A stretch of DNA of 64,000 nucleotides from Bacteroidota bacterium (GTDB lineage Bacteria; Bacteroidota; Bacteroidia; Cytophagales; Cyclobacteriaceae): the NCBI GenBank assembly GCA_016866385.1, contig VGMU01000005.1, positions 1 to 64,000 on the forward strand, read 5' to 3'. The translations under genes were made by a program, and so were the position numbers. Shown one piece after another: positions 36,095 to 42,728 of this stretch (positions within the stretch are counted from its first letter, which is position 1; each line of letters opens with the position of its first letter). The notes under the pieces are model-generated. The model was not told the origin of the DNA. It searched no databases and saw nothing but the letters and a program-made list of their open reading frames with translations.

Positions 36095-36886
36095 TTAAAT
36101 TCCCATCCTCTTAGCGACCAGCTCGGCCAAGTCAACTACCTGTACGTCGGATTCCCGCTCTTTGTTTTTAATTCCATCCGTCATCATCGTAAGGCAAAAA
36201 GGACAGCCTACGGCAATGGCTTGCGCCCCAGTTGCTAGCGCTTCTTCGGTGCGTTCAATATTGATGTCTTTCGCTCCAGGCTCAGGTTCTTTAAACATTT
36301 GTGCCCCCCCTGCCCCACAGCAAAGCCCTTTGCTCTTGCATCGCTTCATTTCCACCAACTCCACATCTAAGGCTTGGATTACTTCTCGAGGAGCCTCATA
36401 TACCTCATTGGCTCTGCCTAGGTAGCAAGAATCATGAAAAGTGATTTTCTTTCCTTTAAATTCCCCACCCCCTTGAAGCACCACTTTGCCTTCGTGGATA
36501 AGCTGCTGTAAAAATTGAGAATGGTGTATCACCTCATAGTTTCCTCCCAAGGCAGGGTATTCATTTTTGATGGTATTGAAACAGTGCGGACAAGCTGTCA
36601 CTACTTTTTTTACCTCGTAGGCATTCATGACTTGAATATTGGCTACCGCCTGCATCTGAAATAAAAATTCATTTCCAGCTCTACGCGCTGGATCGCCGGT
36701 ACAGGCTTCTTCGGGACCAAGCACGGCAAAACTGACGCCAACCTTATTGAGGATTTTTACAAAAGCCTGGGTCACTATCTTGTATCGTTCATCGAAAGAT
36801 CCTGCACAACCTACCCAAAATAAGATCTCTGGGGTTTTTGATGCAGCAGCCATTTCGGCTAGGGTGGGTACTTGATAAGTAGACAT
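36095..36886 (-). CDS. Fe-S oxidoreductase subunit, CCG-domain protein
   Basis: 263 residues with cysteine-rich CCG-type motifs of the heterodisulfide reductase HdrB/HdrD and GlcF/LutA families: VGCAGSFDERY near the start, VTACPHCFNTIKNEYP in the middle, CCGAGGAQMF and GCPFCLTMM near the end. These bind an unusual 4Fe-4S cluster for disulfide or 2-hydroxyacid redox chemistry. It follows the membrane Fe-S protein by 59 bases, and together they resemble a split HdrDE-type quinone-linked oxidoreductase. The true substrate is unknown. Confidence 0.85.
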   Translation of the reverse strand: MSTYQVPTLAEMAAASKTPEILFWVGCAGSFDERYKIVTQAFVKILNKVGVSFAVLGPEEACTGDPARRAGNEFLFQMQAVANIQVMNAYEVKKVVTACPHCFNTIKNEYPALGGNYEVIHHSQFLQQLIHEGKVVLQGGGEFKGKKITFHDSCYLGRANEVYEAPREVIQALDVELVEMKRCKSKGLCCGAGGAQMFKEPEPGAKDINIERTEEALATGAQAIAVGCPFCLTMMTDGIKNKERESDVQVVDLAELVAKRMGI

Positions 36887-36890
36887 ATTG

Positions 36891-36914
36891 TAGATACTAG
36901 ACGTTAGATACTAG
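36891..36914. repeat. Short direct repeat between Fe-S genes
   Basis: TAGATACTAG occurs twice (36891-36900 and 36905-36914) separated by ACGT, in the 59-base gap between the two Fe-S oxidoreductase genes. Confidence 0.7.
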
Positions 36915-36945
36915 AGGTGAGACCATATCGGATTCAAGGCCTCCC

Positions 36946-38277
36946 TTACTTCATTTCTTCTTCTTTTACTTTTTCGGCCCAATTGAAGCGATCGGAAGGA
37001 CTAAATTTCCAAGGAGAAAAGCTAGTCTCCATGTTTTGAAACATGGTATTCCATTGCGCAGGAGTACCCGATTCTTCCATAGCTACATATCTCCTCATTT
37101 GAAGAATAACCGATAGGGGATCTAGAGAAATTGGGCAGGCTTGCACACAAGCATTGCAACTGGTGCAGGCGTTGAGTTCTTCTTTGGAAATGTAATCCCC
37201 CAAAAGAGATTTTCCATCTTCCAGTCCCTTACCCCCAGCATCTATGCTTTTGCCAACTTCTTCTACACGATCTCGTACATCCATCATAATTTTTCTTGGG
37301 GAAAGCTTTTTTCCAGTCAAGTTTGCTGGACATTCAGAAGTACATCTACCACATTCCGTACAGGCATAGGCTTGTAAGAGATTCACCCAACTCAAATCAT
37401 TGATGTCTTTCGCTCCAAATCGACCCATCTCCGAAGGAGCAGGTTCAGAAGTAGTAGCTATTCCCAACATCAGCTGCACCTCTTTGGTCACTTCGGGCAT
37501 ACTTTCCATTTCGCCTTTGGCTCGCAAGTTGGAGTACCACGTGGCAGGAAATGCGAGAAAAATATGGAGGTGCTTGGAAAAGGTAACATATACTGCAAAG
37601 CCTAGAATACCTAGAATATGAAACCACCATGCCCCCCGTTCTAGAATTAAAACTTCCTCAGTACTCCATCCTTGAAGGAGGGGCTGGATTTGACTGCTCA
37701 AAAAGAGCGTTTGCAAAGGAAGGTAGGGGCTTACTGCTTGGTTTGCCAATACCTGGTCGGCGGCATTCATGGTCAAAATCGCACACATCAACACCATTTC
37801 GATCACAAGAATGAGGGTGGCATCAAGTCTTGGCCATCCCTTGAGCTCAGGCTTGGTAAAACGTGCTAGCCGGAGCACATACCTTCGAAAAAGAAGAATC
37901 ACACAGGAGATCAACACCCCAAAAGCTAAAAATTCAAAGCCATTGATGGCAAAAACATAAGCCTTGCCCAAGGTAGGGGCCAACACCCTATGTGTTCCCA
38001 AAAGCCCATCCAATACAAATTCGAAAACTTCTAAATTGATGACCAAAAATCCCACATAGAGCAGGGCATGTAGCAGGGCGGGAATGGGTCTTGCAAACAT
38101 TTTCTGCTGCCCAAAAGCTACCAAAGCCATGGTTTTCCATCGCTTTGATGCTTGATCCTTCCTTGTTTCCGCCTTGCCAAGTAAAATATTTCTACGGAGA
38201 AAGCGTATCCTCTTCCACAAGATAAATCCTGATACTACCAAAACTAAAGCGAAAACAACCTGGGGTATACTGCTCAT
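36946..38277 (-). CDS. Membrane-bound 4Fe-4S oxidoreductase subunit (HdrE/HdrC-like fusion)
   Basis: 443 residues. Five or so membrane helices (within about 1-260) with His residues suited to b-haem ligation, then two 4Fe-4S ferredoxin motifs CTECGRCTSECP and CTSCNACVQACP (about 310-400). This is a NarI-like cytochrome b joined to a dicluster ferredoxin, which passes electrons between the quinone pool and the neighbouring CCG-domain subunit. It is the first gene of the minus-strand run ending with the PorE-like gene. Confidence 0.83.
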   Translation of the reverse strand: MSSIPQVVFALVLVVSGFILWKRIRFLRRNILLGKAETRKDQASKRWKTMALVAFGQQKMFARPIPALLHALLYVGFLVINLEVFEFVLDGLLGTHRVLAPTLGKAYVFAINGFEFLAFGVLISCVILLFRRYVLRLARFTKPELKGWPRLDATLILVIEMVLMCAILTMNAADQVLANQAVSPYLPLQTLFLSSQIQPLLQGWSTEEVLILERGAWWFHILGILGFAVYVTFSKHLHIFLAFPATWYSNLRAKGEMESMPEVTKEVQLMLGIATTSEPAPSEMGRFGAKDINDLSWVNLLQAYACTECGRCTSECPANLTGKKLSPRKIMMDVRDRVEEVGKSIDAGGKGLEDGKSLLGDYISKEELNACTSCNACVQACPISLDPLSVILQMRRYVAMEESGTPAQWNTMFQNMETSFSPWKFSPSDRFNWAEKVKEEEMK

Positions 38278-38752: not shown

Positions 38753-39325
38753 TTAAGACTTACTAGCTTTCAAGTAGACTGCTACTCGCTTGCCCAAGCC
38801 ATGGGCTTTCTTTAGAAAGAGTTCCTCTAATTTGCCCGTATCAAACGGAGCCTCTCCAGTAATGGCTGATGCCCCAAAAGCGGCTTCTGGTTCTTCTCCA
38901 CCAAGAACTACAAGACCATGAATAAGTAGGGAGTGGATCAAATTTAGCATGACTAATTCTTCCCCTATGGAAATTCCTCCCCCACTTACGAAAACAGCTC
39001 CCAGCTTATCCTTTAAAGGGCGTCCTTCAAAAGGCCAGGTATTGATAAATTCTTGCATCCTAGGGTCCACATTGGCATTGTACACGGGCGAACCGAGTAC
39101 AATGGCATCAGCCTGAAGCAAATCCTTTGTACTGATTTCCACAAGGGAGCCAAGCTTTACCGCTACTCCCCCCTCAGCCAAAGCCCCTTCAGCCACCGCC
39201 TTAGCCATTTGAGCGGTATTTCCAGTGGAAGAGGAATACACTATGACTAGGGAAGGGACATGCTGCGCGAGCAAAAGCCCTTGTAGCCCAATCCAGAAAA
39301 AAGAAAAAAATATAAACGATCTCAT
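38753..39325 (-). CDS. Exported flavodoxin-like protein
   Basis: 190 residues. The mature part is a flavodoxin/WrbA-like fold: LVIVYSSSTGNTAQMAKAV is the FMN phosphate-binding loop (SxTGNT), ADAIVLGSPVYNANVDPRM and FVSGGGISIGEE line the isoalloxazine site. Unusually, it starts with a signal peptide (MRSFIFFSFFWIGLQGLLLAQ) and no in-frame ATG removes it. It has neither a twin-Arg motif nor a lipobox. A periplasmic FMN protein of this fold is uncommon; partner and function are unknown. It is downstream of no gene on its strand apart from the M14 gene beyond a terminator. Confidence 0.8.
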   Translation of the reverse strand: MRSFIFFSFFWIGLQGLLLAQHVPSLVIVYSSSTGNTAQMAKAVAEGALAEGGVAVKLGSLVEISTKDLLQADAIVLGSPVYNANVDPRMQEFINTWPFEGRPLKDKLGAVFVSGGGISIGEELVMLNLIHSLLIHGLVVLGGEEPEAAFGASAITGEAPFDTGKLEELFLKKAHGLGKRVAVYLKASKS

Positions 39326-39392: not shown

Positions 39393-41138
39393 TTACTTTT
39401 TCCAGCTTGCCTTTCCCCCCTTGGCAGAATCTACCTCCACCTTTAGGTTTTGGATGGAGGACACAATCCACCTTACTTTTACCGCGCTCATTCCTGGAAT
39501 ATTCTCCACTGCTATTTTTTGAGGGGAAGCCACTTGCTCTTTATAAAGTTTTCGGTCCTCGTCTTGAACCTCAAATCCTGCTACCACCTGAGCACCCGTC
39601 AAGGTTACATAATCCGGTCTTTCAATTTTGTACTTTAGATCTTGGCTTGCATGGGTAGGCATCATGCGCTCGTTGACCACCGTGGCCGTTACCTCTTTTA
39701 ACCCACCTCCAAGATCTTCAACCTTTACTTCGGAGATGGTCAATTTGGGGGTATGGTAGGCATGATAAATAGTAAATGCCGCATTTCTGTGAGCATCTTG
39801 CTCTAGAAGGAATCCCGGATGGGCTCGCCCAAAGGTTTTTTTGAAGCCTCCTATTTCGACCGCACCAAATTGGGGGTGGTTGAAGGAATGCCAATTGACA
39901 AAGGCATCTCCAAAAGTAAGAAGATCATCCACTTTCAGCTGCTCTTCCTGATTGCCTCTTCCTGCATCCTTGTTGAAGTACAAGTAAGAAACCATGAGTT
40001 CATTGGAATAGGTAAAAATTCCTCTAGTACCATAAAACCAGTCCAACTCCCCTCCAAATACGGAATAAAGATCCTTGTAGACGGTCAGGTACCTGTAGCC
40101 AGGAATCATCTCTTCTCCTTTTTTTCCTATGGCGTCGTAGATGCGAATATCCTCTCGATTGTAGGTGTTGACGTCTTCCTCTGCTCCAGGCCCACGAAGA
40201 ATCATCCCTCCTGAATTATGAAAACTTTGTCCCCCTGCAATATTGGGGTGCTTCATCACAAACTCCATCACGGCTCTGTTTTCAGGTAAGGTGAAGGGGT
40301 ACCTCATGGCTCCGCGTTGGATGTAATCGGGTTGCCAATTCCAACCCCAGTCTCTATTGGGATCATAATATCCTATCCCGTCTTCATTGACTTCTCCATC
40401 TCCGTCGTTGTCCACTCCCTCTTGGCCAAGCATTTCGTATTCACCCATTTGATCCGGACCCACTTGTACCAGTCGCCTAGAATCCAAGGGATCCTTGATA
40501 AATCTTCCCGTAGGCGATTTACGAATCATCATCGTAATGTGTCCATCCCCATCCAAATCATCCATTCGATCTTCCCCTGCAGCACCGTCTCCGTCATTGT
40601 CCAGCACGAGCATTCCCGAACGTGGGGAGCTAGCCGTATTGGGCTCTTTAAAGAAATTGTTTCGCGCATCCGGGTTGATCGTAGGGGTGATGTAAAAAGT
40701 TTTGTCCTTGAGGAGCTGCTTTACAAAGGCATTGTCTGCATGCATTTCAGTCAAATACCAGGCCACATAGAGCGAAAATTCTCCGCCTTGCACCTCATTG
40801 GAGTGAATGTTGCCATCGATCCACATGGCGGGCTTGTCGGTGTCCATACCTGCAGAAAAATCCGTGATTGTAAGCGTGAGAATGTCCCTTCCTTCTACAG
40901 ATTTGCCAATGGATTCAATTTTGGCCAGGTTGGGATTAGCTTGAGCGATTTTTTTCATCCAAGACCATAGCCCTTCCGAGCTATAGTACCGGTTCCAAGC
41001 AATTTCCACTTTGGGTTTGTGCGGGGTACCTATGGCTCTAAAGTAATTTTCCTCTTGTGCAGTAGCCTCCAAGGCCAAGGTACTCCAGGCTCCCAAAGCC
41101 CATGCGGCAATCCAAATTTTTAAGTTAATGTTTTTCAT
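39393..41138 (-). CDS. Zinc carboxypeptidase, M14 family, exported
   Basis: 581 residues with a signal peptide ending EATAQ. Zinc-binding H-x2-E is DGNIHSNEVQGGE (His112, Glu115), the third ligand is GQSFHNSGG (His307), and the catalytic Glu is in FTYSNELMV (Glu380). Two Asp/Gly-rich loops (DNDGDGAAGED and DLDGDGHITM, also DNDGDGEVNEDG) look like calcium-binding insertions. A C-terminal beta domain of about 130 residues follows. It lies three bases downstream of a paralogue without the catalytic residues, so the two are co-expressed. Likely periplasmic or secreted peptide degradation. Confidence 0.9.
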   Translation of the reverse strand: MKNINLKIWIAAWALGAWSTLALEATAQEENYFRAIGTPHKPKVEIAWNRYYSSEGLWSWMKKIAQANPNLAKIESIGKSVEGRDILTLTITDFSAGMDTDKPAMWIDGNIHSNEVQGGEFSLYVAWYLTEMHADNAFVKQLLKDKTFYITPTINPDARNNFFKEPNTASSPRSGMLVLDNDGDGAAGEDRMDDLDGDGHITMMIRKSPTGRFIKDPLDSRRLVQVGPDQMGEYEMLGQEGVDNDGDGEVNEDGIGYYDPNRDWGWNWQPDYIQRGAMRYPFTLPENRAVMEFVMKHPNIAGGQSFHNSGGMILRGPGAEEDVNTYNREDIRIYDAIGKKGEEMIPGYRYLTVYKDLYSVFGGELDWFYGTRGIFTYSNELMVSYLYFNKDAGRGNQEEQLKVDDLLTFGDAFVNWHSFNHPQFGAVEIGGFKKTFGRAHPGFLLEQDAHRNAAFTIYHAYHTPKLTISEVKVEDLGGGLKEVTATVVNERMMPTHASQDLKYKIERPDYVTLTGAQVVAGFEVQDEDRKLYKEQVASPQKIAVENIPGMSAVKVRWIVSSIQNLKVEVDSAKGGKASWKK

Positions 41139-41141
41139 GGC

Positions 41142-42728
41142 TTAGAAGGTTAGCGTTTGAGATACAAAGCCGGCATGTGGGGCTCCAGCCTTCAGTTCTA
41201 GGGTAGATTTACCCTTTACTATCCAGCTCAAACTGGCTTTTTCAAATGCGCCTAAAGCGGGGAGCAATTGTACTGCTTCCCCTGCTACCAACTGCTCTAC
41301 TGGCACCTTTAGGTCGATCCTCAGTTTTTTTAGCCATCGGGATCGTGTACCCATTTCCGAATGAGTAGGCAGGGGGGAATTGTTAAACAAATCCACAGAG
41401 ATGCGGGTGAGGCCATTGCCCAGTTTTTCCGCTTTGAGGTGATGAAACTCGAGCTTGGGTTGCATTGCTGCCAGCTTCAGGATAAAATCCGTGTGTTGCT
41501 TGGCAATTTCTCCCACTTTTTCAAAAGGAGGATTGACCATTACAAAGGGCTTGATGCCCCCAACTTCTACCTGTTGGTTTGGAAAATCTGGATGCTGTAC
41601 GGGAGTCCAAGGCACGAAGACCTCTTGTTTTAGGGAATCGGCCCAAGCCAGAAAATTGGCCTCCGCATTGGTTTTTCCTTTGAATTCTGGCGTCCAATAC
41701 CCTGGAGTAGAAAAGCTGAATCGGGCAAAATGGAAATAAGCCCATTGGAAAAAATCTCCATCCGTACCCTGGTTGGTTTGTTGAAAAGCTTTGGCCGGAT
41801 TGCTTTTGGAGTAAAGATCAGCTACCATAGCTTGACTTACCTGATCTTTTTCTAAGATAGAAGTTACTACCCTTTTCCGTGCTTCGCTGGCAGAATACTT
41901 CAAAGGATTGCTCAGGTTATTGGCAGGAGAAAAGGTGACAAAAGCAAAGATGTTCCACTGTTCAAAGAGGTAGTCTAGCAAGGCTCTGCTTTCGAGTTGT
42001 GACACGGCTATGTCTCCTGCTAGCGGTTCAAATACGGGAAATTTATAGCTTAAAGATTTATTGAAGGCAATGCCTTCCGTAAGGTCTTCAGCAAACTTTC
42101 CATCCTTGTCACTATCCACACTTTCCTTGAAGACCAAATACTTTCCCGCTTCTCCCTTGGATCGATCGGCTTTGACCATCACTCTAGGGTCTTCTTTGGA
42201 CGTGGTCCACTCTCCCATAGGATCTGCTACCCTCATCCAGGTAATCTGTCCATCCTCATTCAAATCACTGTAGCCGTTGTCTCCAGGTGTTCCATCACGG
42301 TCATGATCCATCGCCACGGCATTGCCACGACGCTCGTACTTCAAGGCAGCATGGTACTGCGCATAAGCATCTGGAGAAAGGTTGGGAAATACATAAAAGG
42401 TGGTGGATTCGAGTGCCTTGGCATTTTCCCCAACGAGCTTTTCAGCAAACTGAAGGGCCAATTCTACGCTGAGGACATGGAATCCTTCTACACCGCCGAC
42501 TACTGCAATCGCGGGTTTTTGGTCCTTGGCTCCGGTACCGATCTCCAGGGCATAAATTTCCTTGCCGCCAGCAGTCTTGGTCAGCGTCTTTAACTCTACT
42601 GCTGGATTAGCACTGAGTTTTTGGATGCGTTGTGTGGTTTGACTGAGCGTAGGATAGTCGCTTTGGGCAAAGGCCTTGCCACAAAACGTCGTTGCCAGCA
42701 ACAGTCCAAAAAAGAGGTGTTTTCTCAT
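41142..42728 (-). CDS. M14 carboxypeptidase-like protein without catalytic residues
   Basis: 528 residues, signal peptide ending GKAFAQ. Clearly homologous to the gene downstream (DHDRDGTPGDNGYSDLNEDG matches its Asp/Gly loops, and the C-terminal beta domain aligns), but the zinc motif HSNE is replaced by EGFH (Glu81, His84), and the segments that should carry the third His and the catalytic Glu read VTFSPANN and FSFSTPGYW. It is therefore probably inactive as a peptidase, or uses another chemistry. The frame is open and the fold motifs are kept, so this is a stable pseudoenzyme, not a decaying gene. It may bind substrate or the active partner (inference). Confidence 0.8.
   Translation of the reverse strand: MRKHLFFGLLLATTFCGKAFAQSDYPTLSQTTQRIQKLSANPAVELKTLTKTAGGKEIYALEIGTGAKDQKPAIAVVGGVEGFHVLSVELALQFAEKLVGENAKALESTTFYVFPNLSPDAYAQYHAALKYERRGNAVAMDHDRDGTPGDNGYSDLNEDGQITWMRVADPMGEWTTSKEDPRVMVKADRSKGEAGKYLVFKESVDSDKDGKFAEDLTEGIAFNKSLSYKFPVFEPLAGDIAVSQLESRALLDYLFEQWNIFAFVTFSPANNLSNPLKYSASEARKRVVTSILEKDQVSQAMVADLYSKSNPAKAFQQTNQGTDGDFFQWAYFHFARFSFSTPGYWTPEFKGKTNAEANFLAWADSLKQEVFVPWTPVQHPDFPNQQVEVGGIKPFVMVNPPFEKVGEIAKQHTDFILKLAAMQPKLEFHHLKAEKLGNGLTRISVDLFNNSPLPTHSEMGTRSRWLKKLRIDLKVPVEQLVAGEAVQLLPALGAFEKASLSWIVKGKSTLELKAGAPHAGFVSQTLTF

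Follow-up and report, generated by a model that had tools for sequence, protein, structure and literature searches.

A conserved gene pair for an M14 carboxypeptidase and its catalytically dead paralogue in Bacteroidota

In a genome of the Cyclobacteriaceae, a gene for a catalytically dead M14 homologue lies immediately upstream of a gene for an intact M14 carboxypeptidase. The two proteins are homologous over nearly their full length and fall into separate ancient clades, their genes are kept adjacent in one order and occur together, and purifying selection acts on the dead gene. The substrate and the part played by the dead chain are inferred. We suggest, with a probability of roughly 0.6, that the pair forms a secreted enzyme/pseudoenzyme heteromer in which the dead chain supplies substrate binding, gating or stability.

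Under this proposal, the downstream gene would make a zinc carboxypeptidase that trims the C-termini of peptides, and the upstream gene would make an ancient dead paralogue translated just before the live chain. The dead chain would bind the live chain as a heteromer. Its contribution would most likely be substrate binding or admission, gating or stability, provided through a pocket that is still shaped, with the Asn and Lys/Arg positions for a carboxylate kept and the zinc and Glu gone. Such a role may be likened to that of the non-catalytic halves of M16B heterodimers.

The gene pair and its distribution

The window, that is, the whole stretch analysed, comprises the first 64,000 nucleotides of contig VGMU01000005.1 (assembly GCA_016866385.1, a 2.65-Mb draft in 136 contigs). 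The features of the pair are as follows, with the basis of each in brackets.

41142-42728, minus strand: dead M14 homologue, 528 aa, first gene of the pair (ORF; PF00246, 6.2e-14)
39393-41138, minus strand: intact M14 carboxypeptidase partner, 581 aa, second gene (ORF; PF00246, 1.8e-37; tetrad HEHE)
41139-41141, minus strand: 3-nt spacer from stop TAA to start ATG (sequence)
42663-42728, minus strand: probable Sec signal peptide, dead protein residues 1-22, ending in AFAQ (by inspection)
42477-42488, minus strand: E81-G-F-H84, replacing the HxxE zinc motif (alignments)
41928-41930, minus strand: S267, replacing the third zinc ligand, CPA His196 (alignments)
41703-41705, minus strand: P342 of the TPG[WY] motif, replacing the general base, CPA Glu270 (alignments)
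42057-42062, minus strand: N223-K224, equivalents of CPA Asn144-Arg145, which bind the substrate carboxylate (homologue columns)
42249-42308, minus strand: first Asp-rich segment of the dead protein, D141-G160, resembling a Ca loop (conserved columns; putative Ca binding)
42087-42116, minus strand: second Asp-rich segment of the dead protein, D205-E214, resembling a Ca loop (conserved columns; putative Ca binding)
40794-40805, minus strand: H112-S-N-E115 zinc motif of the active partner (alignments)
40218-40220, minus strand: H307, third zinc ligand of the active partner (alignments)
39999-40001, minus strand: E380, general base of the active partner (alignments)

The junction reads TAA-GCC-ATG, and both genes share one frame. 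The preliminary description had recognised two M14 genes three bases apart, the upstream one keeping the Asp/Gly loops and the C-terminal domain. All of this agrees with what we found: the loops are conserved in both proteins, and a profile-profile alignment of the two covers 499 columns, C-terminal domain included (E 8.6e-68), so that the homology extends over about the full length. By BLASTP, the identity is 24% (E 9e-26). PF00246 was matched in all 20 dead and all 20 partner sequences scanned, both protein profiles match carboxypeptidase T by sequence, and a search of NCBIfam gave no match for either protein of the pair. Membership of M16 was checked as well; the only Pfam match is to M14, and HXXEH is absent from the zinc site of both chains. 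By inspection, both proteins begin with apparent signal peptides, and they are probably secreted, probably to the periplasm. The Asp-rich segments of the dead protein may form calcium loops.

In the alignment of the two proteins, HSNE of the partner (H112-E115) becomes EGFH (E81-H84), H307 becomes S267 and E380 becomes P342, which bears out the earlier reading that the zinc motif was exchanged and that the third His and the catalytic Glu were missing. In a separate profile alignment to carboxypeptidase T, with the columns read by eye, E81 and H84 occupy the first two zinc-ligand positions and the third is Gly or Ser. The pocket itself was examined in 55 non-redundant dead sequences (at most 80% identical). 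The Asn144 equivalent is N or D in 52 of these and the Arg145 equivalent K or R in 52, the window protein having N and K. Neighbouring positions are also nearly fixed, namely H333 (52 of 55), S338 (52), P342 (50) and W/Y344 (55). Residue numbering of CPA follows a review table (PMC11266112), apart from N144 and Y248. It is these kept carboxylate-binding positions that suggest substrate binding by the dead chain.

The pair is spread patchily yet widely over the phylum. Within the genus of the window, all 36 genomes have the dead gene, and in 34 its contig also carries a matched partner; in the other two (G006 and G034), a contig end comes within about 0.2-0.5 kb of the dead gene. Counts for the order and the phylum were read from tables. 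In the order sample of 291 genomes, the dead family was counted in 47, a figure that leaves out four weak paralogue matches. In the phylum sample of 395 genomes, the dead gene was found in 36 (in one of them merely a fragment where a contig begins) and the live gene, at a cut of about 525 bits, in 37. As judged by profile score, the dead gene accompanies the live gene in 36 of these 37, G358, G417 and G478 being counted as pair-bearing from the score alone; in the one remaining genome (G451), the live gene stands at the very start of a contig. Most genomes of both samples show neither gene, and the pair has therefore been lost or gained as a unit.

Both genes were found together at 91 loci. 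The dead gene precedes the live one at every locus, with a median gap of 7 nt and a gap of -10 to +30 nt in 74. Outside this count are loci where the genes are apart or the partner is unmatched (L084-L087, L110, L229, L230), contig ends (L093, L237 and a fragment in L236) and L242, a weakly matching, unrelated M14 protein that was dropped. Both genes are present and not adjacent in G060, G117 and G504, while in G145 (92% complete) the dead gene was matched and the partner was not. We searched the flanks (within 4 kb, some stretches being shorter) for a third conserved partner or a larger operon and found none, since no flanking cluster reaches more than 30 of 88 loci. The largest clusters are a universal stress protein (30), an Na/H exchanger (30) and a gene presumably related to ferrochelatase (25). 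No natural fusion of the pair was found either: the longest open frames among hits assigned to the two families are 781 and 734 aa, and longer frames are weak M14 hits outside the pair. Among the best 80 of 475 matches, nearly all come from Algoriphagus and close relatives. The closest named contigs share 83-90% protein identity; most of them are metagenome bins that carry the label Algoriphagus or Cyclobacteriaceae, and three carry the label Spirosoma fluviale. Named Algoriphagus strains reach at most 79%.

Some further observations concern the loci and genomes themselves. Twelve genomes of the genus (G000, G002, G004-G007, G010-G012, G019, G026, G035) are 2.2-2.8 Mb in size and all keep the dead gene; the other 24 are 3.3-6.3 Mb, and the small size of the twelve is due in part to their being incomplete drafts (67-92%). 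Locus L233 (G432) is a three-gene array of a split-frame dead gene followed by two tandem live copies; its dead gene, being in two frames, was too short for the 55-sequence column set. In L236 (G634), a dead gene cut by the contig start is likewise followed by two tandem live copies, one of which is without the third zinc histidine. G409 carries, besides an ordinary pair (L224), a second, divergent dead/live pair (L241; 681 and 581 aa), the dead gene of which has Asp at the general-base position.

Two other units are found near the pair in the window. The gene at 38753-39325 (minus strand) encodes a protein that resembles flavodoxin or FMN reductase (PF12724, 2.7e-11) and, by inspection, seems to start with a signal peptide, that is, a flavodoxin fold that is possibly exported; in 13 of 88 loci, a relative of this gene follows the pair in the same orientation. 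A two-gene iron-sulphur module at 36095-38277 (minus strand) consists of a 4Fe-4S protein, membrane-bound in appearance by inspection, followed by a CCG-domain protein (PF02754).

Predicted contact between the chains and decay of the live partner

The catalytic tetrad (H69, E72, H196, E270) is complete in the window partner and in 89 of 98 partners examined. Outside genus g106 of family f13, it is intact in 81 of 82, the exception being one of the two tandem copies in G634. In g106, the pair is present in 16/16 genomes; the tetrad is intact in eight partners and damaged in the other eight (IEHE, RQHE, HQHE, ADCE, LPYH, LTYH, SGKE, HVSE). The damaged partners (loci L082, L083, L257, L261, L264, L265, L266 and L269) are of full length and adjacent to the dead gene, and a search of their genomes for a second copy of the live gene gave no match at E 1e-10. 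Three changes of state are needed on either gene tree and four on the rpoB tree, with weakly supported forks; bootstrapping the rpoB tree gives 4-5 changes, and its well-supported branches alone force two. Damaged partners evolve faster. The dN/dS was 0.057 for damaged against intact partners and 0.105 for damaged against damaged ones, both with saturated dS, and for the pair L083/L264 it was not computable.

Because live partners have been damaged while the pair was kept, the role of the pair is probably not hydrolysis alone, and a dead chain that merely serves catalysis fails to explain all cases. A pair that outlives its chemistry points to a binding role common to both chains. A tentative extension, which we consider somewhat less probable than its opposite, is that what has been conserved is an M14 scaffold of two chains, which exists to hold a ligand and for which hydrolysis is optional, one half having been dead since a distant ancestor and the other having died repeatedly in one genus, with both halves remaining under selection.

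Physical contact was addressed by modelling the in-frame pair as one chain of 1,111 residues, with the stop read as glycine. The first fused model (36 paired rows; pLDDT 77) had a pTM of 0.54, and therefore shows no confident contact. The second (38 paired and 35 partner-only rows), which differs from the first in its alignment alone, reached a pLDDT of 84.8 and a pTM of 0.80, with residues 529-561 between the halves below pLDDT 50. By our own estimate, which uses assumed error values, untouching halves would give a pTM of about 0.5, and 0.80 needs an inter-half error of about 5 angstrom. A further alignment, A4, was discarded because, to judge from the identities, its dead-only rows had been placed on the active half of the reference chain. 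Among solved structures, M14 carboxypeptidases are nearest to the fused models, and the active half matches carboxypeptidase T with Z 35.8 and rmsd 2.6 over 303 aligned residues. For the second model, the structural matches are confined to the active half, so the fold of the dead half is taken from sequence profiles and its part of the fused model. It should be noted that tandem homologous domains can be falsely packed in structure prediction. The heterodimer proposed in the preliminary description thus receives moderate support that depends on the alignment: the predicted contact appears with the second and not with the first.

The first of these models would suit another explanation, in which the proteins do not bind and the dead paralogue is an independent secreted binder of peptides or of the cell surface, co-expressed with the carboxypeptidase merely because both act on the same material. 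The three genomes in which both genes are present and unlinked (G060, G117, G504) would fit it too, as would the kept pocket positions for a C-terminal carboxylate, and conserved adjacency could reflect shared regulation alone. We nevertheless regard independent action as unlikely in view of the pTM of 0.80 with the second alignment, the tight spacing with the dead gene first in all 91 loci, and the linked rates of change within one genus, where dead and live divergence correlate with rho 0.87 (uncorrected for relatedness) as against 0.54 and 0.48 for each with rpoB, the control being mean identity within the genus and not identity to outgroups.

The same predicted contact and the position of the dead gene immediately upstream would also be expected if the dead chain were a chaperone or inhibitor, made first, that keeps the carboxypeptidase folded or silent until export and has no place in the working enzyme. 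Many cognate inhibitors and immunity proteins are encoded immediately upstream. This appears improbable, as each protein apparently has its own signal peptide (by inspection), and the dead gene was kept in 8/8 of the g106 genomes whose damaged partner needs no inhibitor. The heteromer in which the dead chain assists the working enzyme is the explanation that we consider most likely.

Loss of the metal site, age and selection

The loss of catalytic residues is general among the homologues of the upstream protein. A total of 95 dead homologues were read, 82 in a first set (one false match having been set aside, and one of the 82 being truncated) plus 13 in a second set. No sequence retains two or more of the catalytic tetrad; three retain a single residue, and the general-base Glu is absent from all 95. 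In the 55 non-redundant sequences, the first ligand position is E in 36, D in 9, K in 6, Q in 2, H in 1 and A in 1; the second is H in 35, Q in 12 and other residues in the rest; the third is G in 36, S in 17, E in 1 and T in 1, with no His; and Glu is again absent at the general-base position. Since the zinc positions are gone and the pocket positions are nearly fixed, the dead protein has lost its metal chemistry and kept a shaped pocket. The catalytic death of the upstream protein is well supported by these comparisons of sequence.

A replacement zinc site built on E81 and H84, which had been named beforehand as the case that would overturn this conclusion, was rejected, as the residues at both positions vary across homologues (E/D/K/Q and others at the first; H/Q/D/I and others at the second). 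Within the window's own clade, position 81 is commonly E or D and position 84 commonly H. An active metalloenzyme with a rearranged site made of E81, H84 and another ligand is nonetheless highly improbable, given that 10/55 sequences have K, Q, H or A at position 81 and 20/55 have a residue other than H at position 84, and that neither a His at the third ligand nor a Glu at the general base occurs in the non-redundant set.

In a quick tree of 84 proteins and one outgroup, a branch with an SH-aLRT of 98 separates the 40 dead from the 44 live sequences. Many subgroups recur on both sides, members from outside the window's class included. The tree is rooted with a single outgroup on a branch of 2.22, which leaves the older state uncertain. 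Selection was estimated from 19 compared pairs: in the five with dS below 0.7, dN/dS was 0.008-0.074 for the dead gene and 0.015-0.031 for the live gene, and in most of the others dS was saturated or not computable. These values indicate that the dead gene is under purifying selection. In most comparisons, the dead copy has evolved faster than the live one. Two genomes have a broken dead frame, namely G432 and G143 (the latter at a contig end); the frame is open in the other complete copies read.

The faster evolution and the two broken frames are what a decaying remnant of a recent tandem duplication would show, a reading that we rule out, its chance being negligible beside a split that is ancient and found inside and outside the window's class, the low dN/dS of close pairs and the open frames elsewhere. 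Given the long joint inheritance, the live gene probably needs the dead one as its partner. The survey of Bacteroidota proposed in the preliminary description thus found the pair conserved, and the functional pairing is well supported by the invariant order (91/91), the near-perfect co-occurrence (36/37) and the purifying selection.

Relation to known systems

The nearest parallel in principle is found in the M16B peptidases. In the heterodimers SPH2681/SPH2682, TTHA1264/TTHA1265 and AlbF/AlbE, and in the mitochondrial processing peptidase, a zinc-binding and a zinc-less homologous subunit together make the active enzyme, and the prokaryotic heterodimers come from two-gene operons (PMC11266112, PMC12731061). 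The M14 pair likewise consists of neighbouring homologous genes, one catalytic and one not, that are conserved together. The M16 fold is unrelated, however, and its chemistry is that of an endopeptidase, while the M14 complex is a prediction. The likeness is thus one of working principle only.

Within M14, carboxypeptidase D has two active domains and an inactive domain III, which may bind proteins or present substrate (PMC11266112). There, too, active and inactive M14 domains stand side by side, but in one membrane-anchored eukaryotic polypeptide, whereas the pair consists of two separate bacterial proteins that look secreted and have Asp-rich loops. Substituted catalytic residues are also described for AEBP1/ACLP, CPXM1, CPXM2 and yeast Ecm14, which are linked to extracellular protein binding and all keep H69 and E72 in the review table (PMC11266112). 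In contrast, all three zinc positions are replaced in the dead protein of the window. Those four are eukaryotic proteins with a discoidin domain or a prodomain. To our knowledge, none of them forms a gene pair with an active paralogue.

The closest solved structures are those of carboxypeptidase T from Thermoactinomyces, whose catalytic-domain fold is common to the active half of the model. Carboxypeptidase T is a single active enzyme and is not known to have an Asp-rich insert, a C-terminal domain or a dead partner.

In the open-access literature searched, no paper on a bacterial M14 enzyme/pseudoenzyme pair was found, and the M14 pseudopeptidases named in one review are eukaryotic (PMC11266112). 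Enzyme/pseudoenzyme pairing is known from bacterial M16; the M14 case extends it to a family and a domain of life for which the literature searched reports no such pair. Automatic annotation would probably label both genes as zinc carboxypeptidase, judging from their common Pfam match. Consisting of two genes, a phylum-wide bacterial M14 pair is a tractable system in which to study the contribution of a dead paralogue to a live enzyme, and genus g106, in which the enzyme has died repeatedly and the pair was kept, allows a natural test of whether the pair serves catalysis at all. If the conserved thing is indeed a ligand-holding scaffold, these genomes would hold a natural series from enzyme through half-enzyme to pure binding complex.
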